Shown here piece after piece: positions 3,069-26,681 of a stretch of DNA of 64,000 nt. A model generated the notes under the pieces. The model saw only the letters and a list, made by a program, of their open reading frames with translations. It was not told the origin of the DNA and did no database searches. The position numbers and the translations under genes were made by a program. The DNA comes from Gammaproteobacteria bacterium (GTDB lineage Bacteria; Pseudomonadota; Gammaproteobacteria; Steroidobacterales; GCA-2729495), in NCBI GenBank assembly GCA_016874095.1, contig VGVH01000001.1, positions 353,745-417,744 of the forward strand, given 5' to 3'. Every line of letters starts with the position of its first letter. Position 1 is the stretch's first letter.

Positions 3069-3113
3069 GTTCGTTTTACTCCTCGCACAGAGAGTGATTA
3101 AGTCACGCGGCGA

Positions 3114-3142
3114 AGTATAAACACAGTTTTCGCCGGGAAACA
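3114..3142 (-). promoter_or_regulatory. Candidate sigma-70 promoter of the HU-like gene
   Basis: On the minus strand, TGTTTC and TATACT are separated by 17 bases, with the -10 box about 46 bases before the ATG. The surroundings are AT-rich compared with the genome. The -10 is convincing and the -35 is weak. Confidence 0.4.
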
Positions 3143-3299
3143 TAGTGTTTTTCGATTTGACTTTGTCGCCCGGTTTCGGTGCGAATCGCGCGTTTCGCCC
3201 CCGATGCGCAGTCCGTACGTACCTTCCCCGGCCTCGCGCGCGGCTGCAGTGTCCGGCATAAGTTGCGGGAATCCTGCGGAAATTGCGCTCCTGCAGTTG

Positions 3300-3801: not shown

Positions 3802-3849
3802 CGCAATGCATCCCCGAATCGTTCCCCGGAACGATTATGCTCCCCGCGC

Positions 3850-4128: not shown

Positions 4129-4420
4129 GGAAGACCCGCATTTCGCGCTCTGCCTGCTTGTCGCCTTTCCTGCCGGCGACCGCGATGCCCGACTCGAACG
4201 CGGCGCGAGCGCCCGCTACATCCCCCGCCGCGGCGCGCGCCTTGCCGAGCAGTTTCCAGGCGGCGGAGTACTCGGCGTCGATGGCGACGGCCTTTTCCAG
4301 ATGGGCAATCGCCGCCGCGTGATCGCCCGCTGACAGCTGCTCGCTGCCGAGCGAGTAGCGCAGCAGTGCGCCGTCCTGTCCCTTCGCGAGCAGCGCCTCC
4401 AGCGCGGCGATGCGGCTCAT
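4115..4420 (-). CDS. Small tetratricopeptide-repeat protein
   Basis: A 101-residue protein starting MSRIAALEALLAKGQDGALL at 4420. Its ATG overlaps the trkH stop (ATGA), so it is probably translated by coupling to trkH. Residues 20-85 hold two TPR-like helix pairs (LGSEQLSAGDHAAAIAHLEK and LLGKARAAAGDVAGARAAFE). There is no signal peptide, so it should be cytoplasmic. TPR proteins bind other proteins. The fixed position behind trkH suggests a link to potassium uptake, but no function can be assigned. The track ORF that extends upstream is a shadow of trkH. Confidence 0.85.
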   Translation of the reverse strand: MSRIAALEALLAKGQDGALLRYSLGSEQLSAGDHAAAIAHLEKAVAIDAEYSAAWKLLGKARAAAGDVAGARAAFESGIAVAGRKGDKQAEREMRVFLRRL

Positions 4421-11424: not shown

Positions 11425-13020
11425 TCAACGGACGCGGAAGATCCTGACCGGCAGGCCGATGGCCACCCAGGGAGCCTGGTCGGCCTCGTAGACCTTCTCG
11501 CCGCTGCGCATGATCGCCTCGTAGGTGGCGATTGTGCGCTGGTAGCGCTCGGCCTCTGCGAGCCGCCGATCATAGTGATTGGCGATGACGACGTAGTCGA
11601 TACCCTGTCGGGCGATGAACCCGGGATCGGCCAGCGTGCCGACGATGCCCCGCGGCACCGCGAACCGCCGCCCCTGCGTATCGAGCCGCCAGATGCGGCC
11701 TTGCTCCACGGTGTACAGGCGGTAACGATCCGCCGGCAGCTGCGGCGTGTAGCTCTCCGCCAGGATGGCGCTGCCGGCCGGTACGTTCTCGAGTATCCAG
11801 CGCGAGGCCATGTCGCGGCTGTCGTCGCGCGCGGTCGCGACGGTCCAGGGCAGCGACGCCATCGTCGGCTGTATCAGCGCCACGGCCGTCACCACCAGCA
11901 CCATGGCGGACACTGCGCGCGCGCCGCTGCGGGCGCGGAGCGCGTCAGCGGCTGACGACAGGCCGAGGGCTGCCAGCGCCACCACGAACGGCAGGGCCGG
12001 CAGCGCCCAGCGGTCCCAGCGCAGGCTCAATGACGAGATGAAAGCGAGATACACGGCCAATGCGAGCAGCGCCAGCTGGCCCGAACGGTGCCGTCGAGTC
12101 AGCGCATGCCAGGCGCCGGCGACTGCCAGCACTGCCCCGATCGCGCCGATGTCGGTCAGGATCGGTCCGCCCAGGTAACTGGCCAGCGCAGGGAGAAAGC
12201 CTTCCGAAGTCCCGCTCAGATGGTAGGTCCGCGCCTCGAAATTCAGGTCGCGCAAGACGACCAGCGGCGAGACGAGGAGATAGGGGGAGCCGACCGCGAT
12301 GCCTGCGATGGTCGCGCCGCCGGCTGCTGCCAGTCTCGGGAATTCCGCCCAGACAGGCGAGGAGCGGTCGCGGAGCCGCAGCAGGTGGGCGCCGATGATC
12401 ACGAGGCTGAACACCGCAGCCGGGTACTTCGTCGCGATCGCGAGGCCGAGACAGAAACCTGCCGCAAGGTAGTCGCGCCAGCGCCCCACCGTCGCGACGG
12501 AGAGGACCGCCAGCATTGCCAGCAACACGAAGAAGGTCATCACCATGTCGGAGCGGGCGATGATGGACAGCTGCGTATGCAGCATGCTGGCGGCGAGCAG
12601 GCCGGTTGCCAGCATCGCGCCCGCCCCGCCGGCAATGCGCCGCGCGAACTGCCAGGCAAGCACCAGCGTTCCCGTCGCGAACAGGACGATCACGACGCGC
12701 GCGGCGAGAAACCACGGCGAAGGATCTTCCCGGAAGGCCGCTGCCGCCGCTGCCAGGTCGCTGCTGCCGACGATCTCGAGCGCGCCGAATGCGGCGAGAA
12801 AGCTGTAGATGGCCGTCGACCCGGGATGGCCGAACCAGCCGGGATCGAGGTTGCCGCTCTGGAGCATGGCGAAGGCGCGTTGCACGAAGTCCGGCTCGTC
12901 CGGGTCGTACACGAACGGCAGCCCCCAGTCGATGGCGTACAGCCGCAGCCCGAGGCCAGTCAGCGCGAGCAGCAATGCGCCAAGCGTGAACCAGCGATTG
13001 ACGTCGTGATCGCGGATCAC
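11425..13020 (-). CDS. GT39/PMT-like membrane glycosyltransferase
   Basis: The track ORF is 800 residues, but its first part is out-of-frame ctaA. A GTG at 13020 overlaps the ctaA stop (GTGA) and opens VIRDHDVNRWFTLGALLLAL, giving 531 residues. The first periplasmic loop contains FVYDPDEPDFVQRAFAMLQ, the acidic D-x-D/E metal and substrate site of dolichyl- or undecaprenyl-phosphate-sugar glycosyltransferases (PMT_2, ArnT-like). About 10-12 membrane segments follow, then a C-terminal periplasmic domain (from about 380). Such enzymes transfer a sugar from a lipid carrier to lipid A, a glycan or a protein; the acceptor is unknown. Its placement inside a heme A/oxidase assembly run is unexpected. 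Confidence 0.82.
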   Translation of the reverse strand: MIRDHDVNRWFTLGALLLALTGLGLRLYAIDWGLPFVYDPDEPDFVQRAFAMLQSGNLDPGWFGHPGSTAIYSFLAAFGALEIVGSSDLAAAAAAFREDPSPWFLAARVVIVLFATGTLVLAWQFARRIAGGAGAMLATGLLAASMLHTQLSIIARSDMVMTFFVLLAMLAVLSVATVGRWRDYLAAGFCLGLAIATKYPAAVFSLVIIGAHLLRLRDRSSPVWAEFPRLAAAGGATIAGIAVGSPYLLVSPLVVLRDLNFEARTYHLSGTSEGFLPALASYLGGPILTDIGAIGAVLAVAGAWHALTRRHRSGQLALLALAVYLAFISSLSLRWDRWALPALPFVVALAALGLSSAADALRARSGARAVSAMVLVVTAVALIQPTMASLPWTVATARDDSRDMASRWILENVPAGSAILAESYTPQLPADRYRLYTVEQGRIWRLDTQGRRFAVPRGIVGTLADPGFIARQGIDYVVIANHYDRRLAEAERYQRTIATYEAIMRSGEKVYEADQAPWVAIGLPVRIFRVR

Positions 13021-14030
13021 GCGCGCCTGGGCAGGAACGAAGTCGCGTGCAACAGGTTGATGGTGGAAAGGACGAGCAGTGCCGCGCCGGCGTTGTGCGC
13101 GGTCGCCACGGCGAGCGGCAACCCGAACCACACGGTGCTCACGCCGAGCACCATCTGCAGGCTCACGGCGGCGATGACGAGCCAGCCGGCGAGTGTCACG
13201 CGCGGCGGGTAGTGGCTGCGGCGGGTCGCCCGGCCCGCGACGATGACCAGCAACGCGAGCGTGACCAGCGCGCCCGCCCGATGCGTGAGGTGGATCGCGA
13301 CGCGTGCCGCGGCATCCAGCACGCCACCCTCGTAGTTGATGCCGAGTCCGCGCCAGAGCACGAAAGCCTCTGCGAAATCCGCCTGCTCCGGCCACCATTG
13401 TCCAAGGCACTGTGGCAGGTCGGGGCAGGCCAGCGCGGCGTAGTTCGAGCTGGTCCAGCCACCGAGCAGGATCTGCCCGGTGAGCACCGCAAGCGCTGCA
13501 ATTGCCGGCCAGAAGGCGCGTCGTCTGTCCGGCAGCGTTGCAGCCGACGGCTGCCGACGCGCCTCGAGGATGAGCCACCAGGCCAAGCCGAGCGTCGCCA
13601 GGCCGCCGAGCAAATGCGCCACCACGATCAACGGCTTCACGAGCAGGGTCACTGTCAGCATGCCCAGGAGCCCCTGCAACACGACGGTCAGGAGCAGCAG
13701 CAACGGCATCACGACCGGCTGGCGGGGATCGCGCCGGTTCGCGAACGCCAGTCCCGCAATGCCGACGATACAAAGGCCGAGCGTCGTCGCCGCGTAGCGG
13801 TGGATCATCTCCTGCCACGCCTTCCACTCGTCGACTGGCTGATCCGGAAACCTGGCTATTGCCGCTTCATGCTCGTGCGACTCGTCGGGTACGGTGAGCT
13901 GGCCGTAGCAGCCGGGCCAGTCGGGGCAGCCGAGTCCCGCATCGTTGAGGCGCACCCAGGCGCCAAGCACGACCACGACCAGCGTCAGCGATACGGCGAC
14001 GAGCAGCAGGCGGCGATACCAGTCGTACAT
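13017..14030 (-). CDS. ctaA: Heme A synthase, COX15/CtaA family
   Basis: A 337-residue inner-membrane protein with eight predicted helices. LGAWVRLNDAGLGCPDWPGC is the family signature, with the paired cysteines of the first periplasmic loop. Conserved heme-ligand histidine regions are EMIHRYAATTLGLCIVGIAG, VVAHLLGGLATLGLAWWL, HLTHRAGALVTLALLVIVAG and ATAHNAGAALLVLS. It oxidises heme O to heme A for the aa3-type oxidases encoded nearby. It is adjacent to the SCO-like and SURF1 genes and overlaps the downstream glycosyltransferase. No ctaB (heme O synthase) is visible in this window. Confidence 0.95.
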   Translation of the reverse strand: MYDWYRRLLLVAVSLTLVVVVLGAWVRLNDAGLGCPDWPGCYGQLTVPDESHEHEAAIARFPDQPVDEWKAWQEMIHRYAATTLGLCIVGIAGLAFANRRDPRQPVVMPLLLLLTVVLQGLLGMLTVTLLVKPLIVVAHLLGGLATLGLAWWLILEARRQPSAATLPDRRRAFWPAIAALAVLTGQILLGGWTSSNYAALACPDLPQCLGQWWPEQADFAEAFVLWRGLGINYEGGVLDAAARVAIHLTHRAGALVTLALLVIVAGRATRRSHYPPRVTLAGWLVIAAVSLQMVLGVSTVWFGLPLAVATAHNAGAALLVLSTINLLHATSFLPRRA

Positions 14031-14032
14031 GG

Positions 14033-14632
14033 TCAGCCGATCGTCGAGGCTTTAAGCAGGTGTTTGATATCGGCATGCATGCCCTTCATGCCGGTGCCCG
14101 CGGGGTAGCGCAGCAGCACGTTGCCGAGCGGATCGGCGAGAAACACTTCGTGCCCGCCACGCGGCTCGATGACGCGCACGAGATTCGCGACGTCGGCCGC
14201 GCTGGTCGTGTAGCCGAGGCCGGGGTGCTCAGCGGCGAAAAACGCCTCGTCGGGCGTGCCCTGCGTGACGACGAACAGGCGCTGCACGCGTTCCATGTCG
14301 CGACCGAGCGCGCGACGCACCTGGCGTATCTCGACCAGCGCCTGACGGCAACCGGCGTCGCAGGCCCCAGTGCCCACATATATAAGAGTCCACCTGCCCT
14401 GCAGCATGCGCGTCCTGCCCGGTTCGCCGGGCTGGTCAAAGCCGACGTTCGCGAGTGGTCGTGCCGGCTGGTAAAGCTCGCCGTGATGCGTGGTGCCCTG
14501 CGGCCGCCACTGGAAACCGGTGAAGTAGAGGACCATCGCGACAGCGACGGGACCGAGGAACACCAGAGTGAGCAGCAGCAGAGTGCGGCGATTCTTGGGC
14601 ACCTGGGGGATCGGGTGGACGGCGTCATTCAT
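14033..14632 (-). CDS. SCO-like membrane-anchored thioredoxin-fold protein (oxidase assembly)
   Basis: 199 residues: a cytoplasmic N-terminal tail, one membrane helix (about 18-40, TLLLLTLVFLGPVAVAMVLY), then a periplasmic domain. GRWTLIYVGTGACDAGCRQA carries a CxxxC pair in the position of the SCO1 copper site. The C-terminal part (HEVFLADPLGNVLLRYPAG) matches the last strands of the thioredoxin fold. SCO proteins place copper in CuA of oxidase subunit II or reduce its cysteines. The family's usual Cys-Pro after the motif is replaced by CRQA, so it is a divergent member. The start overlaps the SURF1 gene's end, and it is followed 2 bp later by ctaA. A role in CuA assembly is inferred from fold and position. 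Confidence 0.75.
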   Translation of the reverse strand: MNDAVHPIPQVPKNRRTLLLLTLVFLGPVAVAMVLYFTGFQWRPQGTTHHGELYQPARPLANVGFDQPGEPGRTRMLQGRWTLIYVGTGACDAGCRQALVEIRQVRRALGRDMERVQRLFVVTQGTPDEAFFAAEHPGLGYTTSAADVANLVRVIEPRGGHEVFLADPLGNVLLRYPAGTGMKGMHADIKHLLKASTIG

Positions 14633-15359
14633 GGTGGTAGGCCGAGTGCGACACGCGGCGCCAGTTCAGGACGACATAGAGTACGACGACCAGCCCCGCG
14701 AGCGCGAACCATTGCACGGCATAGCCGATGTGCTCGACCGGTGTCAGCAGCGCCGGGCGCCAGCGGCGGTCGAAGCCGTCCGCGCCGACGGGATCGAGGA
14801 GCAGCTGGTAATCCCGTACCGGGTAGCCGAGCGCCTGCGCGAGATCCGCAGCCGTCGGGTACAGCATGACGCGGGGCCAAGGCAGGTCAGGCCGGGTGTC
14901 CGACGGACCAGCCCGCAAAGCGGCCCGCGGCAGCGCGTCGAGCAGTCCCGTGACCTGGCGCGGCGCATCGCCCACCGCGAGGTCGGGCAGTTTCCGGCGG
15001 TCCGGATTCGCGGGTATCCAGCCGCGGTTCACGAGCAGGGCTGTGCCGTCGCCGACGAGCGGCGTCAGCACCTCGTAGCCGGCACGGCCGTCGCGCGTCC
15101 GGGCGTCGAGCAGCACCTGGTGCGCGACGTCGTAACCGCCGGAGGCCATGATGACGGCGTAGCGCTGCGTGGCGAGCGCAGCGCCGTCGGTCGGGGCAGG
15201 TGCCGGCGCGCCGGCGGACCCGGTGTCGAAGCGCTCGAACAAGACGTCCTTCTGCTCTGAACGGTCGAGCTGCCAGTTGCCCAGGCCGACGAAGGCGCCA
15301 CCGAGCACGAGCGTGCCCAGGGATGCCCAGAGGGGTGGCTGGAAGCGACGGGCCGGCAT
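14625..15359 (-). CDS. SURF1-family oxidase assembly protein
   Basis: From the ATG at 15359 (MPARRFQPPLWASLGTLVLG) it has 244 residues, with an N-terminal helix (about 10-28), a periplasmic domain and a C-terminal helix (YAVQWFALAGLVVVLYVVLNW). The family marks GLGNWQLDRSEQKDVLFERF, LLVNRGWIPANPDRRKLPDL and the C-terminal HIGYAVQWFAL are intact. SURF1 proteins help insert heme A into subunit I of cytochrome c oxidase. The 3' end overlaps the SCO-like gene. It is divergent from the DUF2909 gene, with 27 bp between starts, so a shared bidirectional control region is likely. Confidence 0.93.
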   Translation of the reverse strand: MPARRFQPPLWASLGTLVLGGAFVGLGNWQLDRSEQKDVLFERFDTGSAGAPAPAPTDGAALATQRYAVIMASGGYDVAHQVLLDARTRDGRAGYEVLTPLVGDGTALLVNRGWIPANPDRRKLPDLAVGDAPRQVTGLLDALPRAALRAGPSDTRPDLPWPRVMLYPTAADLAQALGYPVRDYQLLLDPVGADGFDRRWRPALLTPVEHIGYAVQWFALAGLVVVLYVVLNWRRVSHSAYHHE

Positions 15360-15386
15360 GGGGTGCGGATTGTACAATCCCGGACC

Positions 15387-15605
15387 ATGAAGCTCTTCGT
15401 CATACTGGTCCTGCTCGGCATCGTCTACAGCATGGGCTCGGCCCTGTACTTCCTGATGAAGGACAAGGAGGACGGACAGCGGGTGCTGCGCGCCCTTACG
15501 ATCCGGGTGGCACTGTCCGTGTTCTTGTTCCTGCTGCTGGTGATCGCCTACGTTGCCGGCCTCGTGCAGCCAACCGGCCTGCCTGCCGGCCCCCACTCGC
15601 CCTGA
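15387..15605 (+). CDS. DUF2909-like twin-transmembrane protein
   Basis: The ATG at 15387 gives MKLFVILVLLGIVYSMGSAL and 72 residues. There are two helices (about 2-22 and 40-62) joined by a short charged loop with the family-type KDKEDGQRVLRALTIRVALS. Similar proteins sit next to SURF1 and oxidase genes in many gammaproteobacteria, but no function is established. It is divergent from SURF1. The track start eight codons upstream has no ribosome site and would add a non-hydrophobic tail. Confidence 0.8.
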   Translation: MKLFVILVLLGIVYSMGSALYFLMKDKEDGQRVLRALTIRVALSVFLFLLLVIAYVAGLVQPTGLPAGPHSP

Positions 15606-15776: not shown

Positions 15777-16367
15777 ATGATTTGCCTCTACTATCTGGCG
15801 CCGAGTCTCGAGAGCACGCAGCGGATCACCGATGACCTGCACGCCGCCGGCGTCCAGGACTTCTTCCTCCACGTCATTTCCCGCGATGAGTCGGGGCTGA
15901 GAACCCGGCACATCCATTCCAGCAACTACCTGGAAACGCGCGACATCATCCGCGATGGATTCATCGGGGCTGCGCTCGGGCTGGCGCTCGGCCTGGTCCT
16001 CGTAATCGCCGCCATGTACTTCGAGCCATTCGGGCCCGGCGTGCCGCCGTTCATCTTCGCGCTGATCGTCGGGGTGATCACGCTGTTCGGCGCCTGGGAG
16101 GGCGGGCTGGCCGGCATCGCCTCCGAGAACAAGAAGCTCGCCAAGTTTCATCACGATCTCGAAGCGGGGCGCTTCCTGATTCTGATCTACGCGCGCAAAG
16201 CGCAGGGCCCGGCGGTGCGCGGGATGATGCGAGCCAAGCACCCGGAGGCCGAACTCGCCGCGGCGGATCGGCATTTCATCAATCCCTTCAGCAAGGTGCG
16301 CAAGCGTGCCCATCACCGGCACGGGGCGGCCGCGCGAGGGGGAAGCGCGCAACAAAGTAGTCAGTAG
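15777..16367 (+). CDS. Uncharacterised membrane protein upstream of oxidase cluster 1
   Basis: 196 residues starting MICLYYLAPSLESTQRITDD. An N-terminal soluble domain of about 60 residues looks like a ferredoxin-like or regulatory fold (LYYLAPSLES...DDLHAAGVQDFFLHVISRDE). Two membrane helices rich in Gly and Ala follow (about 63-82 and 92-115, GAALGLALGLVLVIAAMYF). The C-terminal region contains HDLEAGRFLILIYARKAQGP, and the tail is basic. The layout resembles DUF1269-type membrane proteins, but I cannot name the family with confidence. It is 23 bp upstream of coxB1 and probably in the same transcript. The 171 bp before it, after DUF2909, hold no gene and may carry the operon promoter. Confidence 0.7.
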   Translation: MICLYYLAPSLESTQRITDDLHAAGVQDFFLHVISRDESGLRTRHIHSSNYLETRDIIRDGFIGAALGLALGLVLVIAAMYFEPFGPGVPPFIFALIVGVITLFGAWEGGLAGIASENKKLAKFHHDLEAGRFLILIYARKAQGPAVRGMMRAKHPEAELAAADRHFINPFSKVRKRAHHRHGAAARGGSAQQSSQ

Positions 16368-16390
16368 GATTCGCACAAAGGAAGTCGGCA

Positions 16391-17782
16391 ATGTCGCTAG
16401 CGGTGGTCCTCATACTGCTCGTGGTCGGCTCAGTGATCTTTCATTTCCTCAGTCCGTGGTGGTTTACGCCGATCGCGTCGAACTGGGGAATGATGGACAC
16501 CACGGTCGACATCACCTTCTGGGTGACGGGGATCGTATTCGTGGCCGTAAACCTGTTCATGGCCTACGCGATCATCCGCTTCCGACACCGGCAGGGGCAG
16601 CGCGCCAAGTACGAACCCGAGAACAAGAAACTCGAGTGGTGGCTGACGGTCATCACGACGATCGGCGTGGTGGCCATGCTCACACCGGGCCTCTTCGTCT
16701 GGGCTGACTTCGTCGCCGTGCCGAAGGATGCTGCGATCGTTGAAGTCGTCGGCCGGCAATGGAACTGGAGCTTCCGCTATCCTGGTGATGACGGGGTTCT
16801 CGGGGCCTCCAGCGCCAAGCTGACCACCCCCGACAATCCGTTCGGCATCGATCCTCAGGACGCAGCCGGCCAGGACGACGTCGTGGTATCGGACCAGGAA
16901 TTGCGGCTGCCCCTCGACCGGCCCGTCAAGCTGCTATTGCGGTCGACCGATGTCCTGCACAACTTCACCGTGCCGCAATTCCGCGTGAAGATGGACTTGG
17001 TCCCCGGCATGGTGACCTACGTCTGGCTCACACCGACGAAGACAGGAACCTTCGAGATTCTCTGTGAGGAGCTGTGCGGCCTCGCTCATTTCGCGATGCG
17101 CGGCAAAGTGATCGTCGACGAGCCGGACGCTTACGCGACCTGGCTCGCGCAGCAGCGCAGCTTCGCCGGCACGCAGTCGCTGGCAGCGGCCGACCCCGTC
17201 GCGGGCCAGGTTTCCTACGCCACCTGCGCCGCCTGCCACGGTGCGCAGGGTGAAGGCAACGTACTGCTCAACGCACCAGCGCTGGCCGGCCAGCCAGGTT
17301 GGTATATCGATCGCCAGCTCGCGAACTTCAGGAAGGGCCTGCGTGGTGCCGCGCCGGGCGACACCTTCGGTCCGCAGATGGTGGGTTTCGCGAGCATACT
17401 GGATGCGGCCGCGACGCGTAATCTCATCGCCTATCTACAGACGCTGCCAGACCCGCGACCAGAGCAGAGCGTTTCCGGCGACGCCAGCGCCGGAGCCCGG
17501 CTCTATGACACCTGCGCGGGTTGCCATGGCGTCGATGGGCAGGGCATCTGGACGAGCAACGGTCCGCGGCTGGCGAACCTCGGCGACTGGTACCTCGAGC
17601 GCCAGCTGAAGTATTTCAAGCAGGGCGTGCGCGGCAAGCATCCACAGGATTTTCACGGGGCCCAGATGGCGTTACTGATGGGCACCTTGCGTGACGATCG
17701 TGCCATCGCCGACGTGGTCGCCTACATCAACACGCTGGGCTCGGGACCGGCAATGGCGGCGGCTGGCACGGCGGCCCGGTAG
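16391..17782 (+). CDS. coxB: Cytochrome c oxidase subunit II with two C-terminal cytochrome c domains
   Basis: A 463-residue fusion. Two helices (about 3-22 and 42-62, plus a hydrophobic stretch at 85-105) anchor it. The CuA cupredoxin domain spans about 115-245, with His190 and ILCEELCGLAHFAM providing Cys225, Cys229, His233 and Met236. Two class I cytochrome c domains follow, with heme motifs CAACH (279-283) and CAGCH (375-379) and likely Met ligands in FGPQMVGFA and HGAQMALLM. Electrons would pass from a donor through two hemes c to CuA, so a separate soluble cytochrome c may not be needed. Most caa3 oxidases have one such domain. No cleavable signal is obvious. It is the first structural gene of cluster 1. 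Confidence 0.95.
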   Translation: MSLAVVLILLVVGSVIFHFLSPWWFTPIASNWGMMDTTVDITFWVTGIVFVAVNLFMAYAIIRFRHRQGQRAKYEPENKKLEWWLTVITTIGVVAMLTPGLFVWADFVAVPKDAAIVEVVGRQWNWSFRYPGDDGVLGASSAKLTTPDNPFGIDPQDAAGQDDVVVSDQELRLPLDRPVKLLLRSTDVLHNFTVPQFRVKMDLVPGMVTYVWLTPTKTGTFEILCEELCGLAHFAMRGKVIVDEPDAYATWLAQQRSFAGTQSLAAADPVAGQVSYATCAACHGAQGEGNVLLNAPALAGQPGWYIDRQLANFRKGLRGAAPGDTFGPQMVGFASILDAAATRNLIAYLQTLPDPRPEQSVSGDASAGARLYDTCAGCHGVDGQGIWTSNGPRLANLGDWYLERQLKYFKQGVRGKHPQDFHGAQMALLMGTLRDDRAIADVVAYINTLGSGPAMAAAGTAAR

Positions 17783-17801
17783 GGTTCAAGGGGATACAAC
17801 A

Positions 17802-19562
17802 ATGGCATACGTAGCAATCGCCGACCGCGACACGCACCTGCATGACCCGCAGACGTTCGTCACGAAGTACATCTGGAGCCAGGACCACAAGGTCATCGCC
17901 ATCCAGTATTCCCTGATCGCCATCGGCGTGGGTCTGGTAGCGCTGGTCCTGTCCGGGATGATGCGCCTGCAGCTCGGTTTTCCGGACACGTTCTCCTTCA
18001 TCACCCCGAACAACTATCTCCAGTTCATCACCATGCACGGCATGATCATGGTGATCTATCTGCTCACCGCGCTGTTCCTCGGCGGATTCGGCAACTACCT
18101 CATTCCCCTCATGGTCGGCGCGCGCGACATGGTATTCCCGTACATGAACATGCTGAGCGTGTGGGTCTACCTGCTCGCCGTCCTGGTGCTCCTGGCCAGC
18201 TATTTCGTGCCCGGGGGGCCGACGGGCGCCGGCTGGACGCTCTATCCGCCGCAAGCCATCCTCCCCGGTACCGCCGGCGCGAGCTGGGGGATCATCCTCA
18301 TGCTTGTTTCGCTCGCGATTTTCATCGTGGCGTTCACGATGGGCGGGCTGAACTACGTCTGCACGGTGCTACAGGCACGCTGCCGTGGCATGACGCTGAT
18401 GCGGATGCCGCTGAGCATCTGGGGCATCTTCATGGCGACGATTCTCGGCCTGCTGGCGTTTCCCGCCTTGCTGGTCAGCGCCATCATGATGATCCTCGAT
18501 AGCCTGATCGGCACCAGCTTCTTCATGCCGGCCATCGTTTCGATGGGCGAGCAGCTCGCCTACGAGGGCGGCAGTCCGATCCTGTTCCAGCACCTGTTCT
18601 GGTTTTTCGGGCATCCGGAGGTCTACATCGTCGCGCTGCCGGCGTTCGGCATCGTGTCCGATCTGCTGAGCGTGCATGCCCGCAAGAACATCTTCGGCTA
18701 CCGGATGATGGTGTGGGCGATTCTGGCGATCGGCGGACTGAGCTTCGTCGTCTGGGCCCATCACATGTACGTGAGTGGCATGAATCCCTATTTCGGTTTC
18801 TTCTTCGCCACGACTACGTTGATCATTGCGGTGCCGACGGCAATCAAGGTGTACAACTGGGTGCTCACCTTGTGGCATGGCGACATACACCTGCGCGTGC
18901 CCATGCTGTTCGCGATCGGTTTCATCTTCACCTTCATTCACGGCGGCCTGACCGGCCTGTTCCTCGGCAACGTCACCGTGGATCTGCCGTTGTCGGACAC
19001 CTACTTCGTCGTCGGGCACTTCCACATGGTGATGGGCGTGTCCCCGATCCTGGTTGTCTTTGGCGCGATCTATCACTGGTTCCCGAAGATCACCGGGAAG
19101 ATGTACAACGAGACGCTCGGCAAGTGGCACTTCTGGCTGACCTTCCTCGGTACCTACTCGATCTACCTGCCGATGCATTACCTGGGCATACTCGGTGTGC
19201 CACGCCGCTATTTCGCACTCGGCGAGACGGAATTCATTCCAGATTCCGCGCACATCGCCAACGAGAGTATTACGATTTCCGCGTTGATCGTCGCGGTCGT
19301 GCAGATCCTGTTTATCATCAACATGGTCTGGAGCACATGGCGCGGGCAGAAGGCGGACCCGAATCCTTGGGGTGCAACCACGCTGGAGTGGCAAACGCCG
19401 GACACGCCGCCCAAGCATGGCAACTGGGGTCCGAAGTTGCCCGAGGTGTATCGCTGGGCTTACGACTTCAGCGTGCCTGGCGCAGCGCGTGACTTCATCC
19501 CGCAGAACGAGCCGCTGGATCCGAAGATCGCCCCTGGCAGAGACCACGGCGTCCACGCGTGA
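17802..19562 (+). CDS. coxA: Cytochrome c oxidase subunit I (cluster 1)
   Basis: The ATG at 17802 (MAYVAIADRDTHLHDPQTFV) gives 586 residues; the upstream track extension overlaps coxB. All A-type heme-copper oxidase marks are present: the heme a His in FITMHGMIMVIY; WFFGHPEVYIVALPAFGIV with the CuB His, the proton-channel Glu and the His-Tyr crosslink; VVWAHHMYVSGM with the CuB His pair; AVPTAIKVYNW with the K-channel Thr and Lys; and VVGHFHMVMG with the heme ligands. The D-channel Asp is in VGARDMVFPYMN. It therefore looks like a working proton pump of the A1 type. It lies 19 bp after coxB, and its stop overlaps the next start (GTGA). Confidence 0.97.
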   Translation: MAYVAIADRDTHLHDPQTFVTKYIWSQDHKVIAIQYSLIAIGVGLVALVLSGMMRLQLGFPDTFSFITPNNYLQFITMHGMIMVIYLLTALFLGGFGNYLIPLMVGARDMVFPYMNMLSVWVYLLAVLVLLASYFVPGGPTGAGWTLYPPQAILPGTAGASWGIILMLVSLAIFIVAFTMGGLNYVCTVLQARCRGMTLMRMPLSIWGIFMATILGLLAFPALLVSAIMMILDSLIGTSFFMPAIVSMGEQLAYEGGSPILFQHLFWFFGHPEVYIVALPAFGIVSDLLSVHARKNIFGYRMMVWAILAIGGLSFVVWAHHMYVSGMNPYFGFFFATTTLIIAVPTAIKVYNWVLTLWHGDIHLRVPMLFAIGFIFTFIHGGLTGLFLGNVTVDLPLSDTYFVVGHFHMVMGVSPILVVFGAIYHWFPKITGKMYNETLGKWHFWLTFLGTYSIYLPMHYLGILGVPRRYFALGETEFIPDSAHIANESITISALIVAVVQILFIINMVWSTWRGQKADPNPWGATTLEWQTPDTPPKHGNWGPKLPEVYRWAYDFSVPGAARDFIPQNEPLDPKIAPGRDHGVHA

Positions 19563-20230
19563 GCACGACCGTACTGTTCGTTCTCGTTCTGGCCGGCGTC
19601 GTCGGCTGGTGGTTGTTCGCCCGGCAGCTGACCGGGAGGCCGTGGGAACTCGCGCAACGCAAGCTCGATGATTCGCACGAAGGCGCCACGCTCGCCGTCA
19701 GCCCCGCTCGCACCGGGCTGTGGGTGTTGCTTGCCGTCATCAGCTCTTTTTTCGCGCTGTTCATGTCGGCCTATGGCATGCGCATGATGCTCGACGATTG
19801 GCGACCGCTCGCGGAGCCGTCTTTGCTATGGGGTAACACCCTGATCCTCGTACTGAGCAGCATCGCGTTTCAATGGACGCGCGTCGCCGCTCGGCGTGGC
19901 GATCGTCCCGCCGTGCAGACGGGCCTCATCGTCACGGGGTTTTTTACCTTTGCTTTCCTTGCCGGCCAGGTACTCGCCTGGCGGCAGCTCAGTGCATCGG
20001 GGCAATATCTCCACAGTAACGTGGCCAACGCCTTTTTCTTCCTGCTCACCGGCTTGCACGGTCTGCACCTGCTTGGGGGTCTCGCGGCGTGGGCCAGGAC
20101 GATGCTGCGCCTCATGCAAGCCGGCACGGCCTTGGGTCAGGCCCGCCAGAGCGTCGAGCTCTGTGCAACCTATTGGCACTACCTGCTGCTTGTCTGGTTG
20201 GTGCTGTTCGGAATGTTGTTAGCCACATAG
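19559..20230 (+). CDS. Cytochrome c oxidase subunit III-like membrane protein (first of two)
   Basis: 223 residues from a GTG that overlaps the coxA stop. There are six or seven hydrophobic helices. The C-terminal half has the subunit III pattern LTGLHGLHLLGGLAAWARTM followed by VELCATYWHYLLLVWLVLFG, where the His and Trp-His positions match subunit III. The N-terminal part has an extra helix and a short charged loop (RPWELAQRKLDDSHEG). It is followed 18 bp later by a second subunit III-like gene, so cluster 1 carries two. One may be a structural subunit and the other an accessory paralogue; sequence alone does not tell which. Confidence 0.85.
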   Translation: MSTTVLFVLVLAGVVGWWLFARQLTGRPWELAQRKLDDSHEGATLAVSPARTGLWVLLAVISSFFALFMSAYGMRMMLDDWRPLAEPSLLWGNTLILVLSSIAFQWTRVAARRGDRPAVQTGLIVTGFFTFAFLAGQVLAWRQLSASGQYLHSNVANAFFFLLTGLHGLHLLGGLAAWARTMLRLMQAGTALGQARQSVELCATYWHYLLLVWLVLFGMLLAT

Positions 20231-20248
20231 TCGGGGGCACACAGGCGC

Positions 20249-20944
20249 ATGAGCGATCACGCAATGACCAGCACGGCGCCGGCCGCCGTTGCACCGGACG
20301 GACTGAGCGGCGTCACGGCCGACTGGTCTGCGGACAAGCAAGCCTTCCCCGTCCCCTGGGGCAAGGCGATGATGTGGATCTTCCTGCTCAGCGACACTTT
20401 TATTTTCACTTGCTTCCTGACGTCGTACATGAACGTGCGCATGTCGACCACCGAGGTATGGCCGAACGCCAGCCAGGTTTTCGCGCTGCACATCGGCGGC
20501 GCCGACGTGCCGATGGTCCTGATCGCGATCATGACGTTCATCCTGATCACGAGCAGCGGAACCATGGCTCTCGCCGTGAACTACGGTTACCGGCGCGACC
20601 GCGCCCGGACGACGTCCCTGATGCTGATTACCGCGGCCTTTGGCGCCGTGTTCGTCGGCATGCAGGCGTTCGAGTGGACCAAACTGATCGTCGATGAAGG
20701 CATACGGCCGTGGGGCAATCCGCTCGGCGCGGCGCAGTTCGGCTCCTCGTTCTTCATGATCACAGGCTTCCACGGCCTGCACGTGTCCGCCGGAGTAATC
20801 TATCTGGTGGTCGTGGCGATGCGCGTGTGGAACGGGTTCTACGATCGCAAGGGCACTTACGAGACCGTCGAGATCACCGGCCTGTACTGGCACTTCGTCG
20901 ATCTCGTGTGGGTGTTCATTTTCGCGTTTTTCTATCTTTGGTGA
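20249..20944 (+). CDS. coxC: Cytochrome c oxidase subunit III (second copy, cluster 1)
   Basis: 231 residues with five to six helices. WGKAMMWIFLLSDTFIFTCF is the helix with the conserved Glu replaced by Ser-Asp, and FFMITGFHGLHVSAGVIYLV and EITGLYWHFVDLVWVFIFAF are the classic subunit III motifs (GxHGxHV, YWHFVDxVW). It stabilises subunit I and the D-channel entry. The N terminus has a soluble tail of about 35 residues. It resembles the canonical subunit III more than the preceding gene does. It sits 19 bp before the subunit IV gene. Confidence 0.92.
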   Translation: MSDHAMTSTAPAAVAPDGLSGVTADWSADKQAFPVPWGKAMMWIFLLSDTFIFTCFLTSYMNVRMSTTEVWPNASQVFALHIGGADVPMVLIAIMTFILITSSGTMALAVNYGYRRDRARTTSLMLITAAFGAVFVGMQAFEWTKLIVDEGIRPWGNPLGAAQFGSSFFMITGFHGLHVSAGVIYLVVVAMRVWNGFYDRKGTYETVEITGLYWHFVDLVWVFIFAFFYLW

Positions 20945-20963
20945 GAAAGGCTGGACGACACGC

Positions 20964-21281
20964 ATGGACAAGGCCGAAGGTCAACAACACCCGCTGGCGA
21001 TCTACCTGTGGATCTGGGTAACGCTATTCGTGCTCAGCGCTTTCTCGTACATGGTCGACTACTTCCACGTGCAGGGATATCTGCGCTGGACACTGATCAT
21101 CATTTTCATGTTGCTCAAAGCAGGGCTGATCGTGGCCGTGTTCATGCACATGGCCTGGGAACGCCTGGCACTGAAGTTCGCGATACTCGTGCCGCCGCTT
21201 TGTCTGCTGGTTCTGATCGGCCTGATGGCCGTCGAAGGTGATTACACCTTCTTCACGCGACTGTCGGAGTTCGTGCGCTGA
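20964..21281 (+). CDS. Cytochrome c oxidase subunit IV (prokaryotic type)
   Basis: 105 residues with three membrane helices. YLWIWVTLFVLSAFSYMVDY, the lysine in IIFMLLKAGLIVAVFMHMAW and HMAWERLALKFAILVPPL fit the COX4_pro family (CoxD/CyoD-like), whose third helix carries the same K-x-x-L-I-V-x-x-F-M-H pattern. It is a small non-catalytic subunit that packs on subunits I and III. It is the last gene of cluster 1, and its 3' end overlaps the convergent small membrane gene by 40 bp. Confidence 0.9.
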   Translation: MDKAEGQQHPLAIYLWIWVTLFVLSAFSYMVDYFHVQGYLRWTLIIIFMLLKAGLIVAVFMHMAWERLALKFAILVPPLCLLVLIGLMAVEGDYTFFTRLSEFVR

Positions 21282-21535
21282 TCCTGATCCGCAACACCCC
21301 AAACCCAGGCGAGGATGCCGAAGACGAGCAGCGCGAGGGCGACGATCGCGAACGGCAGCGGCGGCAGCCACAGTGGAACTTCCTCGAGCGTTGGCGTGCC
21401 GACAAGCGAACCGATGACGATCACGAGCAGCATGCCGAAGGTGATTCCGAGCGCGATCACCGGCTGCCGGCGCCAGGCCAGCGCCCAGAGAGCGATCAGT
21501 AGCAGAAGCACAATCACGAAAGTGGTAACGCTCAT
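21242..21535 (-). CDS. Small two-helix membrane protein, function unknown
   Basis: 97 residues with an SD-like GGGAG before the ATG (MSVTTFVIVLLLLIALWALA). Three hydrophobic stretches are visible (about 4-18, 26-44 and 60-82), separated by short polar turns, and the C-terminal tail is polar (VADQDQRTNSDSRVKKV). I do not recognise a family. Support for a real gene: it fills an otherwise empty 250-bp gap, has a ribosome site, and is uniformly hydrophobic. Its last 13 codons overlap the coxIV gene on the other strand. It lies 42 bp downstream of the cytochrome c5 gene on the same strand, so the order cytochrome then small membrane protein may be one transcript. Confidence 0.55.
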   Translation of the reverse strand: MSVTTFVIVLLLLIALWALAWRRQPVIALGITFGMLLVIVIGSLVGTPTLEEVPLWLPPLPFAIVALALLVFGILAWVWGVADQDQRTNSDSRVKKV

Positions 21536-21577
21536 TATCGTTGCTCCCTGAAGAGTCCCTGATCGCCCGGCTCTTTC

Positions 21578-22096
21578 CTAGCGCGACTCCGCCAGCATAT
21601 AGGCGACTGCTGCCCTGACTTCCGCGTCCGAAAGGTTCACGAAGCCGCCTTTGGCCGGCATCACGCCTTTCTTCCCCTGGAAGCCCGCGATCGCATTGCG
21701 CTCCAGCGACGCCACGCCCTGCGCGATGCGTGCTCCCCAGTCCGCCTTGTCTCCCAGCTTTGGCGCGCCGGCAATGCCGGCACCATGGCAGGCATTGCAG
21801 GCTTGATTGAATACCTGCGGACCAGACAGGGGGGCCGCCACCGGTGCCGGGATAGCGGCAACGGGGGTGGCATCGGTTTGCCCGGCGGGCGACTCCTGGC
21901 CGGCAAGTACCACCGTCCCGACCGGCTTGAGTCGCTCGTCGACCTCATGCTGGTACTCCGGATTGTCGCGAACGGCGACATTCTGCGTCCTCGACGCCAC
22001 GAAGGCAGCGAGCAGCCCGAGTCCCACGGCTGTTGCAATGAGCACACCCATGATCAGCGTGAACAAATCCATGAACTTCCGGTCGTGGGTGGCCAA
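21578..22096 (-). CDS. Membrane-anchored cytochrome c5-like protein
   Basis: 172 residues. A membrane helix near the N terminus (about 9-33, LFTLIMGVLIATAVGLGLLA) acts as anchor. An Ala/Pro-rich linker follows (about 65-90), then one cytochrome c domain with the heme motif CNACH and a Met ligand in KKGVMPAKGG. GVMPAKGGFVNLSDAEVRAA is the cytochrome c5 signature (VMPAKGGxxxLSDxEVxxAV). It is a likely electron carrier to the oxidase of cluster 2, whose subunit II lacks its own heme c. The gene lies between the two oxidase clusters. Confidence 0.92.
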   Translation of the reverse strand: MATHDRKFMDLFTLIMGVLIATAVGLGLLAAFVASRTQNVAVRDNPEYQHEVDERLKPVGTVVLAGQESPAGQTDATPVAAIPAPVAAPLSGPQVFNQACNACHGAGIAGAPKLGDKADWGARIAQGVASLERNAIAGFQGKKGVMPAKGGFVNLSDAEVRAAVAYMLAESR

Positions 22097-22147
22097 TCGC
22101 TTGCTCCTGCGGGGATGATCGGCGAGGCACGTTTGATATTGCCAGCT

Positions 22148-22175
22148 AGTATAACTGGCGTCCGATGCTACGCAA
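22148..22175 (-). promoter_or_regulatory. Candidate promoter of the cytochrome c5 gene, inside a short palindrome
   Basis: On the minus strand TTGCGT, a 16-base spacer and TATACT lie about 50 bases before the ATG of the cytochrome gene. The -10 is inside the inverted repeat GCCAG-N9-CTGGC (22141-22159), which could be an operator. The reverse reading (TATAAC) could also serve the HIG1 gene. Confidence 0.35.
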
Positions 22176-22261
22176 ACGCCGCCCGTGCGCGCCTATCGAT
22201 GAATTTGCCAGCCTTGGCCTATACTCGACGGTGGTTGCAGCATTCTGATGAGAGATTGGAA

Positions 22262-22453
22262 ATGAATGTGCTTACGGTGCTCATCGTGTTGGCATTGCTT
22301 GCCACCATGGCCACGTTGCTTTTGGGGCTCATCTCCATGGGCGGCGGCGGTTCTCTGGATCGACAGCTCAGCACGCCATTGATGTGGGCCCGGGTGGGCC
22401 TTCAGGCCCTTGCGGTGGCGCTGCTGATCATCGCCGCGGCAGTCGCGCCGTGA
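22262..22453 (+). CDS. HIG1-domain small membrane protein
   Basis: Only 63 residues, starting MNVLTVLIVLALLATMATLL at 22262; the long track ORF upstream of it is a shadow of the cytochrome gene. There are two helices (about 3-23 and 42-61) joined by a loop SMGGGGSLDRQLSTPLMWAR. The pattern S/N-x-x-L-M-x-x-R-V-x-x-Q-x-x-A-x-x-L is that of HIG1 (hypoxia-induced) domain proteins, which in mitochondria and some bacteria associate with cytochrome oxidase supercomplexes. Its place between two oxidase clusters agrees with that role. The usual second Arg is Trp (LMWAR). Confidence 0.8.
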   Translation: MNVLTVLIVLALLATMATLLLGLISMGGGGSLDRQLSTPLMWARVGLQALAVALLIIAAAVAP

Positions 22454-22457: not shown

Positions 22458-23339
22458 CTAAAACCAATACACGAAGATGAACAGGCCAAGCCACACGACG
22501 TCGACGAAGTGCCAATACCAGGCGACACCCTCGAAGGCAAAGTGCCGATCCGGCGTGAAGTGACCGCGCAGACAGCGTAGCCAGATGACGGTGAGCATGA
22601 TCGCGCCGATGGTCACGTGTGCGCCGTGAAAACCCGTCAGCATGTAGAACGTCGAGCCGTAGATCCCGGTCTGCAGAGTCAGGTTCAGGTGCGTGTACGC
22701 TTCGTAGTACTCGTACACCTGGCAGCCCATGAAGACGAAGCCGAGAATGAACGTGGCTCCAAGCCAGACCAGCAGCGACCCACGTCGGCCAGCTTTCAAG
22801 GCGTGATGGGCGATAGTCAGGGTCACGCCGCTCGTCAGGAGAATGGCCGTGTTCAGTGCCGGAATCGGGAAAGGACCCATCGGAGAGAAGTTGCCGCCTA
22901 CGGCGCCCGGTCCATTCGATGGCCACTCGTTTTCGAAGCTCGGCCAGATCAGCAACTTCGTCCACATATCGGTCCCCTCGCCGCCCAGCCATGGCAGTGA
23001 GAGTTGGCGGGCATAAAAGAGCGCGCCGAAAAATACCGCAAAAAACATGACCTCGGAGAAAATGAACCAGCCCATGCCCATGCGAAAGGACTTGTCTACC
23101 TGTTCGTTGTAGAGCCGCGACTCGCTTTCCCCGATCACCTGGCCGAACCAGCGGAACATCATGTACAGGAGCAAGGCGATTCCGGCGTATACCGCCACCT
23201 CGCCTGCACCGGAGCCATTGAGGACCCGGGAGACGCCCCAGAACAGCGTGAACAGGGCGATGGAACCGATGATGGGCCAATTGGTGCCATGAGGCAGGTA
23301 GTACTTGACTGGTGCGGCGTCGTTGGTCATGCGCATCAT
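22458..23339 (-). CDS. coxC: Cytochrome c oxidase subunit III (cluster 2)
   Basis: A 293-residue, seven-helix protein of the full-length mitochondrial type. GWFIFSEVMFFAVFFGALFY contains the conserved Glu of helix III. FYMLTGFHGAHVTIGAIMLT and GVAWYWHFVDVVWLGLFIFV are the C-terminal signatures. A loop insertion (about 125-165) carries several prolines. It is the last gene of cluster 2, 13 bp after ctaG. Confidence 0.96.
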   Translation of the reverse strand: MMRMTNDAAPVKYYLPHGTNWPIIGSIALFTLFWGVSRVLNGSGAGEVAVYAGIALLLYMMFRWFGQVIGESESRLYNEQVDKSFRMGMGWFIFSEVMFFAVFFGALFYARQLSLPWLGGEGTDMWTKLLIWPSFENEWPSNGPGAVGGNFSPMGPFPIPALNTAILLTSGVTLTIAHHALKAGRRGSLLVWLGATFILGFVFMGCQVYEYYEAYTHLNLTLQTGIYGSTFYMLTGFHGAHVTIGAIMLTVIWLRCLRGHFTPDRHFAFEGVAWYWHFVDVVWLGLFIFVYWF

Positions 23340-23352
23340 CCCCCGGGAATAG

Positions 23353-23901
23353 TCACGCCGTGGACTTCACGAACATCGTGTAGGACAGCGTCACGCGATC
23401 GACATAACTCGGCAGGTTGCGATCCAGATAGAACTGTACGACAAGCTCGCGTGTTTCCTGCGGTTCGAACTTCTGCTCCTGGAAGCAGAAGCATTCGGTC
23501 TTGTTCACGTACTGCGCGGCGCCGCCAGGGGCAACATTCGGGATTGCCTGGCCAGTCAGCGGGTGATCCGTCAGATTTCGTGCCCTGAACTTGACGGTCT
23601 GGAGCTGGCCCGGATGCACCGCGAGTTCCGTGACCGCCGGCGCAAACTCCCAGGGGGCGTACTCGTTGACCGAAGCGAGAAATTCAACCGTTATCGTCCG
23701 CTGCTCGTCCATCGCAACGGGAATCGCGGTAACCGCCTGCACGTTTCTGCCGCCGATCCCGGTTATCTCGCAGAGCAGGTCATAGAGCGGAACCAGCAGA
23801 TAGCCGAAGCCGAACATGCCTATCGCCAGAGCAACCAGCCGCAGTGTCAGACTGCGATTGGAGTGTCGGGCGAAATGGCGCTGGCTGCTGCGCTCTGCCA
23901 T
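23353..23901 (-). CDS. ctaG: Cytochrome c oxidase assembly protein CtaG/Cox11
   Basis: 182 residues: one N-terminal helix (about 20-42, LRLVALAIGMFGFGYLLVPL), then a beta-sandwich periplasmic domain. The copper-binding Cys pair is in NKTECFCFQEQKFEPQE (CFCF), the hallmark of Cox11. It delivers copper to the CuB site of subunit I. It follows the small assembly protein by 1 bp. It would serve cluster 2 directly and might serve cluster 1, which has no ctaG of its own in view. Confidence 0.96.
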   Translation of the reverse strand: MAERSSQRHFARHSNRSLTLRLVALAIGMFGFGYLLVPLYDLLCEITGIGGRNVQAVTAIPVAMDEQRTITVEFLASVNEYAPWEFAPAVTELAVHPGQLQTVKFRARNLTDHPLTGQAIPNVAPGGAAQYVNKTECFCFQEQKFEPQETRELVVQFYLDRNLPSYVDRVTLSYTMFVKSTA

Positions 23902-23902
23902 G

Positions 23903-24013
23903 TCAGTTGGGTAGCTTTACGAGGAAGTAGGTGACATAGAAAGAGAGCGACAGCACCACCAGCAGCCAGACCTGGCGTCGCACGCGCCTGCGGGACTCGT
24001 CGCGTGCCTTCAT
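23903..24013 (-). CDS. Small cytochrome oxidase assembly protein (36 residues)
   Basis: Too short for the ORF track in its own right. MKARDESRRRVRRQVWLLVV begins at an ATG that overlaps the coxA2 stop (ATGA), and the protein ends FYVTYFLVKLPN. It has a basic N terminus and a single membrane helix (about 15-32). Genes of this size and position between coxA and ctaG recur in proteobacteria and are annotated as small oxidase assembly proteins. Both junctions (4-bp overlap with coxA, 1 bp to ctaG) argue for translation. Confidence 0.8.
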   Translation of the reverse strand: MKARDESRRRVRRQVWLLVVLSLSFYVTYFLVKLPN

Positions 24014-25593
24014 TTGACCAGCGGGGCCTCTTCGAAGGTATGGTAGGGAGCAGGAGACGGCACGGTCCACTCCAGGCCCTCGGGATGGTCCCATACCTGA
24101 CTCGTCGCCTTCTGCCCGCCTCGAGCACACTGCACGACGATCCAGACGAACAGCAGCTGCGCGAAGCCGAAGCCGAAAGCGCCGATACTCGACACGAGGT
24201 TCCAGTCCGTAAACTGCGTGGCATAGTCCGGGATGCGACGCGGCATGCCGGCCAGGCCGAGGAAATGCTGCGGAAAGAACAGCAGGTTCACAAAAATCGT
24301 GGACAGCCAGAAATGCCACTTGCCGAGCGTCTCGTCATACATGTGGCCGGTCCACTTGGGTAGCCAGTAGTAGGCCCCCCCCAGCGCTGCGAACAGGGCA
24401 CCCGGCACCAGCACGTAGTGAAAGTGCGCCACGATGAAATAGGTGTCGTGGTACTGAAAGTCGAGCGGCACGATGGCCATCATCAGGCCGGTGAAGCCGC
24501 CTATGCTGAACATGAACAGGAAGCCGATGGCGAACAACATCGGTGTCTCGAACGTGAGCGAGCCGCGCCACATCGTCGATATCCAGTTGAAAACCTTCAC
24601 GGCCGTCGGTACGGCAATCAGCATGGTCGTCATCATGAAGAACAATTCGCCAGCGAGCGGCATGCCGACGGTGAACATGTGATGAGCCCACACGATGTAG
24701 GAGAGAAAGCCGATGCTGGCGGTCGCGTACACCATTGAGTCATAGCCGAACAGTCGCTTGCGCGAAAAGGTGGGAATGATCTGCGACACGATTCCGAAGG
24801 CCGGCAGAATGATGATGTAGACCTCCGGGTGCCCGAAGAACCAGAAGATGTGCTGGAACAGCACGGGATCGCCGCCGCCGGCAGCCTGGAAGAAGCTCGT
24901 ACCGAAGAATTGATCCGTGAGTAACATCGTGACGCCACCGGCCAGCACGGGCATAGCACCGATCAGCAGATACGCCGTGACGAGCCAGGTCCAGACGAAC
25001 ATCGGCATCTTCATCAGCGTCATGCCGGGTGCGCGCATGTTCAATATCGTCACGATGATGTTGATGGAGGCCATGATGGACGAGATGCCCAGCAGGTGGA
25101 TCGAAAAAATGGTGAACGGAAAGCCGTCGCCTGCCTGCAGTGACAGGGGCGGATAAAGCGTCCAGCCCGAAGCCGGCCCTCCGCCCGGCATCAAGAGGGT
25201 CGCGAGCAGCATTGCACCGGCGAAAGGCAGCAGCCAGAACGACCAGTTGTTCATTCGTGGCAGCGCCATATCGGGGGCGCCGATCATCATCGGAATCATC
25301 CAGTTCGCGAATCCCGCGAATGCCGGCATGATCATGCCGAAGACCATGATGAGGGCGTGCATCGTCGTCATCTGATTGAAGAAGTCAGGATTGACGAACT
25401 GGATGCCTGGTTGGAACAGCTCGGCGCGGATCACTAGCGCCATCAGTCCACCCACGAACAGCATCACGAGCGCGAACAGCAAATAAAGGGTGCCGATATC
25501 CTTGTGGTTGGTCGTGCGGATCCACCGCATGAGGCCCTTTTCCGGGCCATGGGCGTCGTGCTCGTCACTGTGATCATGCGTTGCCACGCTCAT
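24010..25593 (-). CDS. coxA: Cytochrome c oxidase subunit I (cluster 2)
   Basis: 527 residues, the standard aa3 size. Marks: MHALIMVFGMIMPAFAGF (heme a His), IGAPDMALPRMNNWSFWLLP (D-channel Asp), FWFFGHPEVYIIILPAFGIV (CuB His, Glu, crosslinked Tyr), YIVWAHHMFTVGMP (CuB His pair), IAVPTAVKVFNWISTMW (K-channel Thr/Lys) and YFIVAHFHYVLVPGALFAAL (heme a3 and a His). It is a canonical A1-type proton pump. It is 52 bp after coxB2 and overlaps the small assembly gene. It differs from the cluster 1 copy (586 residues) in length and in the HFHYV versus HFHMV motif. Confidence 0.97.
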   Translation of the reverse strand: MSVATHDHSDEHDAHGPEKGLMRWIRTTNHKDIGTLYLLFALVMLFVGGLMALVIRAELFQPGIQFVNPDFFNQMTTMHALIMVFGMIMPAFAGFANWMIPMMIGAPDMALPRMNNWSFWLLPFAGAMLLATLLMPGGGPASGWTLYPPLSLQAGDGFPFTIFSIHLLGISSIMASINIIVTILNMRAPGMTLMKMPMFVWTWLVTAYLLIGAMPVLAGGVTMLLTDQFFGTSFFQAAGGGDPVLFQHIFWFFGHPEVYIIILPAFGIVSQIIPTFSRKRLFGYDSMVYATASIGFLSYIVWAHHMFTVGMPLAGELFFMMTTMLIAVPTAVKVFNWISTMWRGSLTFETPMLFAIGFLFMFSIGGFTGLMMAIVPLDFQYHDTYFIVAHFHYVLVPGALFAALGGAYYWLPKWTGHMYDETLGKWHFWLSTIFVNLLFFPQHFLGLAGMPRRIPDYATQFTDWNLVSSIGAFGFGFAQLLFVWIVVQCARGGQKATSQVWDHPEGLEWTVPSPAPYHTFEEAPLVK

Positions 25594-25645
25594 CCTGACT
25601 GCTCCTGGCGGCGGCTCCCGTCTGTGGGATCGCCCGAACCTTGAC

Positions 25646-26446
25646 TCAACCGGTCACCTGCTGCCGCAACCAGGCATCGAACTCGCTCTCGGGAATGACT
25701 TCGACGACGATCGGCATGAAGCCGTGGTCCTTGCCGCACAGTTCCGCGCACTGGCCACGGTAAGTTCCCGGTCGGTCGACCTGAAACCATCCCTCGTTCA
25801 TGTAGCCCGGGATCGCGTCGCGCTTGACGCCGAAATCGGGCACCCACCACGCGTGATTGACGTCGTTCGAGGTGATGAGGTAGCGGATCTTTACGCCAGC
25901 CGGCAGCACCAGCGGCCGGTCGACTTCGAGCAGGTAGTTGTCCACCGCGTAGGGGTCCCTGCCGGAGTTCTTCTGGCGCGCAACGTTGCTCTCTCTGCCA
26001 AGGGTGCTATAGAAGCTGTAGTTCTTCCCGACGTACTCGTACTGCCACTTCCATTGATAACCGGTGATCTTGACGGTGAGTTCAGACCCGCTCGTGTCCT
26101 CGATGAGGATCAGCGCCTGGGCGGCCGGGATCGCCAGGCCGACCATGACAAAGAAGGGAATTACCGTCCAGATGAATTCGGCCAGGTTGCTGTGGTCCCA
26201 GGTCGCGGACGCAACACCCGGTTTCTTTCGGAATGCAATCAGCGCGTAGGTCAGAACGGCGAACACCAGCACGCCGATGACCGTGACGATCCCGAGGACC
26301 AGCATGTGCAGGTCGTAGATACGGCTGCTGATCTCGGTGACGCCCCGCGGCAGGTTGGTCGCCCAATCGGCGTGCGCATGGGCGTAAGCGAACAACCCCG
26401 CGGCAGCGGCGAGAGCTCGCAAAGCAGACTTTCCGAGTGACAGCAT
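25646..26446 (-). CDS. coxB: Cytochrome c oxidase subunit II (cluster 2)
   Basis: The track start is 15 codons upstream. I prefer the ATG at 26446, since MLSLGKSALRALAAAAGLFA...AHAHA is a well-formed signal peptide and GGGGT lies upstream. It then has 266 residues. Two helices follow (about 45-68 and 88-108). The CuA domain holds VNHAWWVPDFGVKRDAIPGY (His ligand) and GQCAELCGKDHGFMPIVVEV (C-x3-C-x3-H-x2-M). There is no cytochrome c domain, so a separate carrier such as the nearby cytochrome c5 must deliver electrons. It is the first gene of cluster 2. The 235 bp upstream to bioC contain no gene and probably the promoter. Confidence 0.93.
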   Translation of the reverse strand: MLSLGKSALRALAAAAGLFAYAHAHADWATNLPRGVTEISSRIYDLHMLVLGIVTVIGVLVFAVLTYALIAFRKKPGVASATWDHSNLAEFIWTVIPFFVMVGLAIPAAQALILIEDTSGSELTVKITGYQWKWQYEYVGKNYSFYSTLGRESNVARQKNSGRDPYAVDNYLLEVDRPLVLPAGVKIRYLITSNDVNHAWWVPDFGVKRDAIPGYMNEGWFQVDRPGTYRGQCAELCGKDHGFMPIVVEVIPESEFDAWLRQQVTG

Positions 26447-26681
26447 CAGTTCTACCCCAAGCCTCGAGCCCAAGAGCATTGCGATCCGCATCAGACGCTA
26501 TTCCGAATGGCCGGCACTCGGGATGTGATCGTCAGGTTAGACGCCAGCATCGGACTTCACCGGAAGCCGACACGTAACGCAGGAGCGCAAACAACGAACG
26601 CTCAGCCTCGCTAGGGGCAACGACCCCCCGGAAGCAGCGAAATTCTAAAGGATGGACCGGATCAGTTGAAGAGGTTCTTCG

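Follow-up and report, generated by a model that had tools for sequence, protein, structure and literature searches.

A predicted ccaa3-type cytochrome c oxidase of the CoxMNOP branch with a c4-like diheme subunit II, and the probable zero-, one- and two-heme series to which it belongs

The window, i.e. the whole stretch of 64,000 nucleotides that was analysed, contains a five-gene operon, coxM-coxN-coxO-coxP-COX4, with coxM as its first gene and two subunit-III paralogues. Judged from sequence, it very probably encodes an A-family cytochrome c oxidase of the ccaa3 type, belonging to the CoxMNOP branch, in which a cytochrome c4-like diheme tail on subunit II would serve as donor relay. We adopt this reading because the CuA site, the two His-Met heme sites and the operon are intact and these parts are conserved together. 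Taken singly, the enzyme is an ordinary representative of an oxidase type already published, and its value lies in the series which it forms with its relatives. It is likely that the CoxMNOP scaffold carries subunit II in zero-, one- and two-heme forms, and that two-heme subunits arose at least twice, from modules unrelated to each other, namely by capture of a c4-like cytochrome and by tandem duplication of a caa3-type domain. If true, the series would be a natural experiment on the benefit of a tethered electron donor to a terminal oxidase, where matched enzymes could serve to test whether such a donor raises turnover, makes soluble cytochrome c dispensable to the cell, or commits the enzyme to one partner, be it bc1 or another. 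No description of the series or of the two modules was found in the literature covered, from which subscription papers were mostly absent.

The coxM reading frame starts with ATG behind a plausible Shine-Dalgarno sequence, AAAGGAAG, has exact coordinates (Table 1) and encodes 463 residues. The initial annotation had read in it a complete set of CuA ligands and two fused cytochrome c domains with the motifs CAACH and CAGCH, and had proposed a domain search; the reading is borne out. Pfam matches COX2 at residues 117-236 (2.7e-19), Cytochrom_C in two stretches (1.8e-26) and Cytochrome_CBB3 at residues 277-348, and the NCBIfam model CoxB (TIGR02866) scores over its cut-off. Ligand alignment gives H190, C225, E227, C229, H233 and M236 as a complete CuA site, and C279/C282/H283 with M330 and C375/C378/H379 with M426 as the heme sites; both c domains are of class I, each with a CxxCH motif and a Met ligand. 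Among 20,000 shuffled versions of the sequence, not one had two CxxCH motifs. Two features by which the sequence of a ccaa3 subunit II is recognised are present, a complete CuA site and a C-terminal extension with a pair of heme c motifs. The AlphaFold model of the product has a mean pLDDT of 85.8, and its best structural match is the caa3 subunit II 2yev_B. An extra N-terminal helix (residues 2-20; 16391-16486) is predicted ahead of a strongly conserved SPWWFTPIASNW; it may be an uncleaved third membrane helix, not a signal peptide.

The rest of the operon agrees with the II - I - III-like - III-like gene order of CoxMNOP oxidases. Translation of coxN shows the six histidine ligands, the GHPEVY motif and the K-channel lysine that mark A1 oxidases of the A family, and aligns over its full length with solved A-type oxidases. 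Its best start lies behind AAGGGG, in preference to the GTG at 17691 given in a mechanical list of open reading frames. Wherever enough downstream DNA was available (59 of 59 loci), coxN, coxO, coxP and COX4 follow coxM.

Table 1. Features of the ccaa3 operon and its surroundings in the window
Feature	Position	Strand	Remark
coxM-type subunit II: CuA domain plus a fused pair of cytochrome c domains	16391..17782	+	
CuA ligand region H190...C225-x-E227-x-C229-x3-H233-x2-M236	16958..17098	+	
Cytochrome c domain 1	17192..17449	+	CAACH 17225-17239, Met330 17378-17380
Cytochrome c domain 2	17477..17737	+	CAGCH 17513-17527, Met426 17666-17668
coxN, subunit I (A-type)	17802..19562	+	heme/CuB histidines, GHPEVY, K-channel Lys present
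coxO, first subunit-III-like protein	19559..20230	+	
coxP, second subunit-III-like protein	20249..20944	+	
Prokaryotic subunit IV (COX4_pro)	20964..21281	+	
Uncharacterised membrane protein, 196 aa	15777..16367	+	adjoins coxM in 35/73 loci with enough upstream DNA
Small membrane protein of extra block	21242..21535	-	no family match
Monoheme cytochrome c of extra block	21578..22096	-	with coxM in 7/50 loci
Twin transmembrane helix / HIG_1_N small protein	22262..22453	+	
Canonical aa3 operon	22458..26491	-	ccaa3 block nested in its locus
Canonical coxC	22458-23339	-	
ctaG	23353-23901	-	
Canonical coxA	24010-25593	-	
Canonical coxB	25646-26491	-	
Rest of canonical cox locus	13017..15605	mostly -	DUF2909 on +
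ctaA	13017-14030	-	
PA0111-like redox protein	14033-14632	-	
SURF1	14625-15368	-	
DUF2909	15363-15605	+	

Regarding the conservation of the electron-carrying sites, 71 of 80 homologous loci retain all 14 CuA and heme ligand positions, and the sole difference in the other nine is E227Q (L035-L037, L039-L043 and L064, mostly Steroidobacter or related MAGs). This change is tolerable, since it is the backbone of the residue that contacts copper, and glutamine occupies the same place in Thermus ba3. The Met ligands of the c domains, on whose presence the initial annotation had made its reading depend, are kept in 80 of 80 loci.

As to function, the bc1 complex or small cytochromes of the periplasm would supply electrons, which would pass by the two tethered hemes to CuA, heme a and the heme a3-CuB site, and protons would be pumped in the manner of A1 oxidases; with its donor attached, the oxidase would not depend on the arrival of a diffusing one. 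It is plausible that bc1 or a periplasmic donor hands electrons over directly, and heme attachment, heme A content, the order of the hemes and the identity of the donor are likewise inferred. On the donor side, the genome encodes cytochrome c1 and, outside the window, a separate, freestanding diheme c4-like cytochrome. A tail that acts chiefly in docking, for instance as the scaffold of a bc1-oxidase supercomplex, and not as an electron relay is unlikely. In P. aeruginosa c4 is part of a bc1-cbb3 supercomplex, as the PDB title of 8smr states, and docking and relay may coincide; but the heme-binding residues and Met ligands retained across the 80 loci would be superfluous for a mere scaffold.

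Where the tail came from is indicated by comparison of its two domains, which share 47% identity with one another and 23-24% with monoheme caa3-type domains, with freestanding secreted diheme cytochromes ~40-54% identical to the fused tail. The freestanding homologues have signal-peptide-like N-termini, and the distance between their hemes almost equals that in the tail (97 vs 96 residues). By sequence the tail matches the cytochrome c4 1etp (E=1.7e-14), and the predicted tail superposes on the c4 found in the bc1-cbb3 supercomplex of P. aeruginosa (8smr_K) with TMt 0.78 and rmsd 3.5 over 198 columns, which suggests that the domains are arranged as in c4. In a tree of single domains, built from 90 columns only and with many weak forks, the first domains cluster together, as do the second domains (3 changes vs 26 by chance). 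Because the two kinds separate, the duplication is probably older than the fusion and the fused module was probably already diheme; most likely the tail was acquired by capture of a whole secreted diheme cytochrome. Another conceivable origin is that a monoheme caa3 subunit II doubled its single c domain in place, passing from zero to one to two hemes. Monoheme relatives do exist on the same scaffold, and family f175 of the class shows exactly such a route, but the domains of the window are of another type than the monoheme ones and stand far closer to each other and, at ~50%, to the freestanding diheme cytochromes. Doubling in place is therefore largely refuted for the window lineage, and we rate it as very unlikely. 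Two side observations concern freestanding diheme cytochromes. At locus L198 a tail-related one (~6209-6762, - strand) lies directly upstream of an alternative-complex-III-like operon (846-5800; multiheme c, Mo-type, NrfD), and at L122 (4419-6290) two such genes lie directly upstream of coxM in genome G012, with similar copies in G019.

A probable second route to two hemes is seen in family f175, where a long CoxM occurs in 17 of 149 genomes. All 15 of those read carry two c domains, both caa3-type, with ~50% identity between the two as well as to monoheme domains, and ~24% to the domains of the window; coxM genes with such tandem domains were noted at L202 (6716-8191) and L220-L234. Among relatives on the CoxM scaffold, the alphaproteobacterial subunit II lacks heme c, that of others carries a single caa3-type domain, and that of f175 a tandem pair. 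In the CuA phylogeny, a check proposed in the initial annotation, 49 of 50 diheme rows come together and the f175 row falls among monoheme rows, yet a single clade of all diheme rows is not rejected (AU p 0.39). Two origins are thus not proven by the CuA tree alone, and the argument for two routes is made because the c modules differ. Eleven canonical coxB genes examined for a Shewanella-type diheme form in the order had one heme c or none.

The distribution of the diheme form depends on the level at which it is surveyed: it is common in its own order and scarce across the class. A CuA homologue was found in 5 of 274 genomes of the class sample, four of them at full diheme length, and in 151 of 396 genomes and 38 of 72 genera of the order sample, nearly all at diheme length (450-490 aa). 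Family f14 of the order has a 363-aa CoxM, monoheme in the one member read. The phylum sample gave a homologue in 25 of 399 genomes, and members outside the class are short frames of 278-325 aa; the ones read lack a heme c motif. A scan of the genome collection gave 520 relatives, among them cultured Steroidobacter, Peristeroidobacter, Povalibacter and Ramlibacter. The initial annotation had called two fused hemes much rarer than one, a reading that by its own account would be refuted if a survey showed the form to be common in related genomes; the rarity holds class-wide and fails in the order, whose survey gives just such a result and also rules out rarity as the main point.

In the window, the ccaa3 block (15777-22453) lies between coxC and DUF2909 of the canonical locus coxB-coxA-ctaG-coxC-DUF2909-SURF1-PA0111-like-ctaA. 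In congeners this locus is otherwise identical in layout, and the gap between coxC and DUF2909 is 24-61 bp (G002, G003, G004, G007), 431 bp (G005) or 1.9 kb (G008/G009); the ~1.9 kb in the latter two congeners is other DNA (L114 5955-7826, L115 5968-7839). All nine congeners lack a homologue of coxM. A plain recent insertion was considered and set aside, as the MAGs L061, L075, L083 and L084 share the nested layout; in Steroidobacter the block lies instead between the PA0111-like gene and ctaA. Since the nested layout recurs in other MAGs, loss in the congeners and gain in the window lineage are equally possible, and base composition gives no clear sign of recent transfer. Two of these MAG records (L061, L075) are titled Klebsiella pneumoniae, almost certainly by misassignment. 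The 196-aa membrane protein next to coxM has no Pfam or NCBIfam family and lies on the opposite strand in some loci; it is possibly an assembly factor of the CoxMNOP branch. The genome also encodes a cbb3 oxidase outside the window and gave no match for a bd oxidase, and the ccaa3 enzyme is an accessory oxidase alongside the canonical aa3 (coxBAC) and cbb3. It might be a silent or decaying duplicate, in keeping with the missing counterpart in the nine congeners and with the weak or starvation-only expression of ccaa3 in Shewanella and KF707 (PMC4728554, PMC5492768). This we hold to be very improbable, for the frames are open, the ribosome site, catalytic residues and operon order are intact, and third-position G+C resembles that of neighbouring genes.

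Among known systems, COX2 is reported to be often fused to cytochrome c in the COX operons of proteobacteria (PMC4013037), and several diheme forms are published. The initial annotation had named Desulfovibrio, and a dihaem subunit II is indeed known in the heme-copper oxygen reductase of D. vulgaris (Lobo et al. 2008, as cited in PMC3899249), which by that description resembles the window in its diheme cytochrome c on subunit II and belongs to a sulfate reducer distant from the window organism. It is not the sole precedent, since CoxB of Shewanella oneidensis (PMC3899249) and CoxM of P. pseudoalcaligenes KF707, encoded by coxMNOP (PMC5492768), are published ccaa3 subunits. The S. oneidensis enzyme, expressed at carbon starvation and high oxygen (PMC4728554), shares with the window the A1 subfamily and a CuA-bearing subunit II whose C-terminal extension has two heme c motifs. 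By its published description it is encoded in a cox cluster for three subunits that has a single subunit III, whereas the diheme gene of the window stands in a coxMNOP operon and the window's canonical coxB, in its coxB-coxA-coxC cluster, has no heme c motif. KF707 shares with the window the II-I-III-III gene order and an A-family subunit I, and its CoxM, ~52 kDa by description, likewise has two c-type heme motifs; if it belongs to family f175, its two c domains would be tandem caa3-type and not c4-like. Alphaproteobacterial CoxMNOP oxidases (Sinorhizobium meliloti pSymB, Skermanella) have the same II-I-III-III-IV operon and a CuA domain 57-66% identical to the window's, but their subunit II, of ~255-315 aa, has no fused cytochrome c, and in S. 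meliloti a separate cytochrome c gene adjoins the operon. Finally, cytochrome c4 has, like the window tail, two tandem class-I domains, and the whole predicted tail superposes on it; c4 is a separate protein, whereas the window tail is tethered to subunit II.
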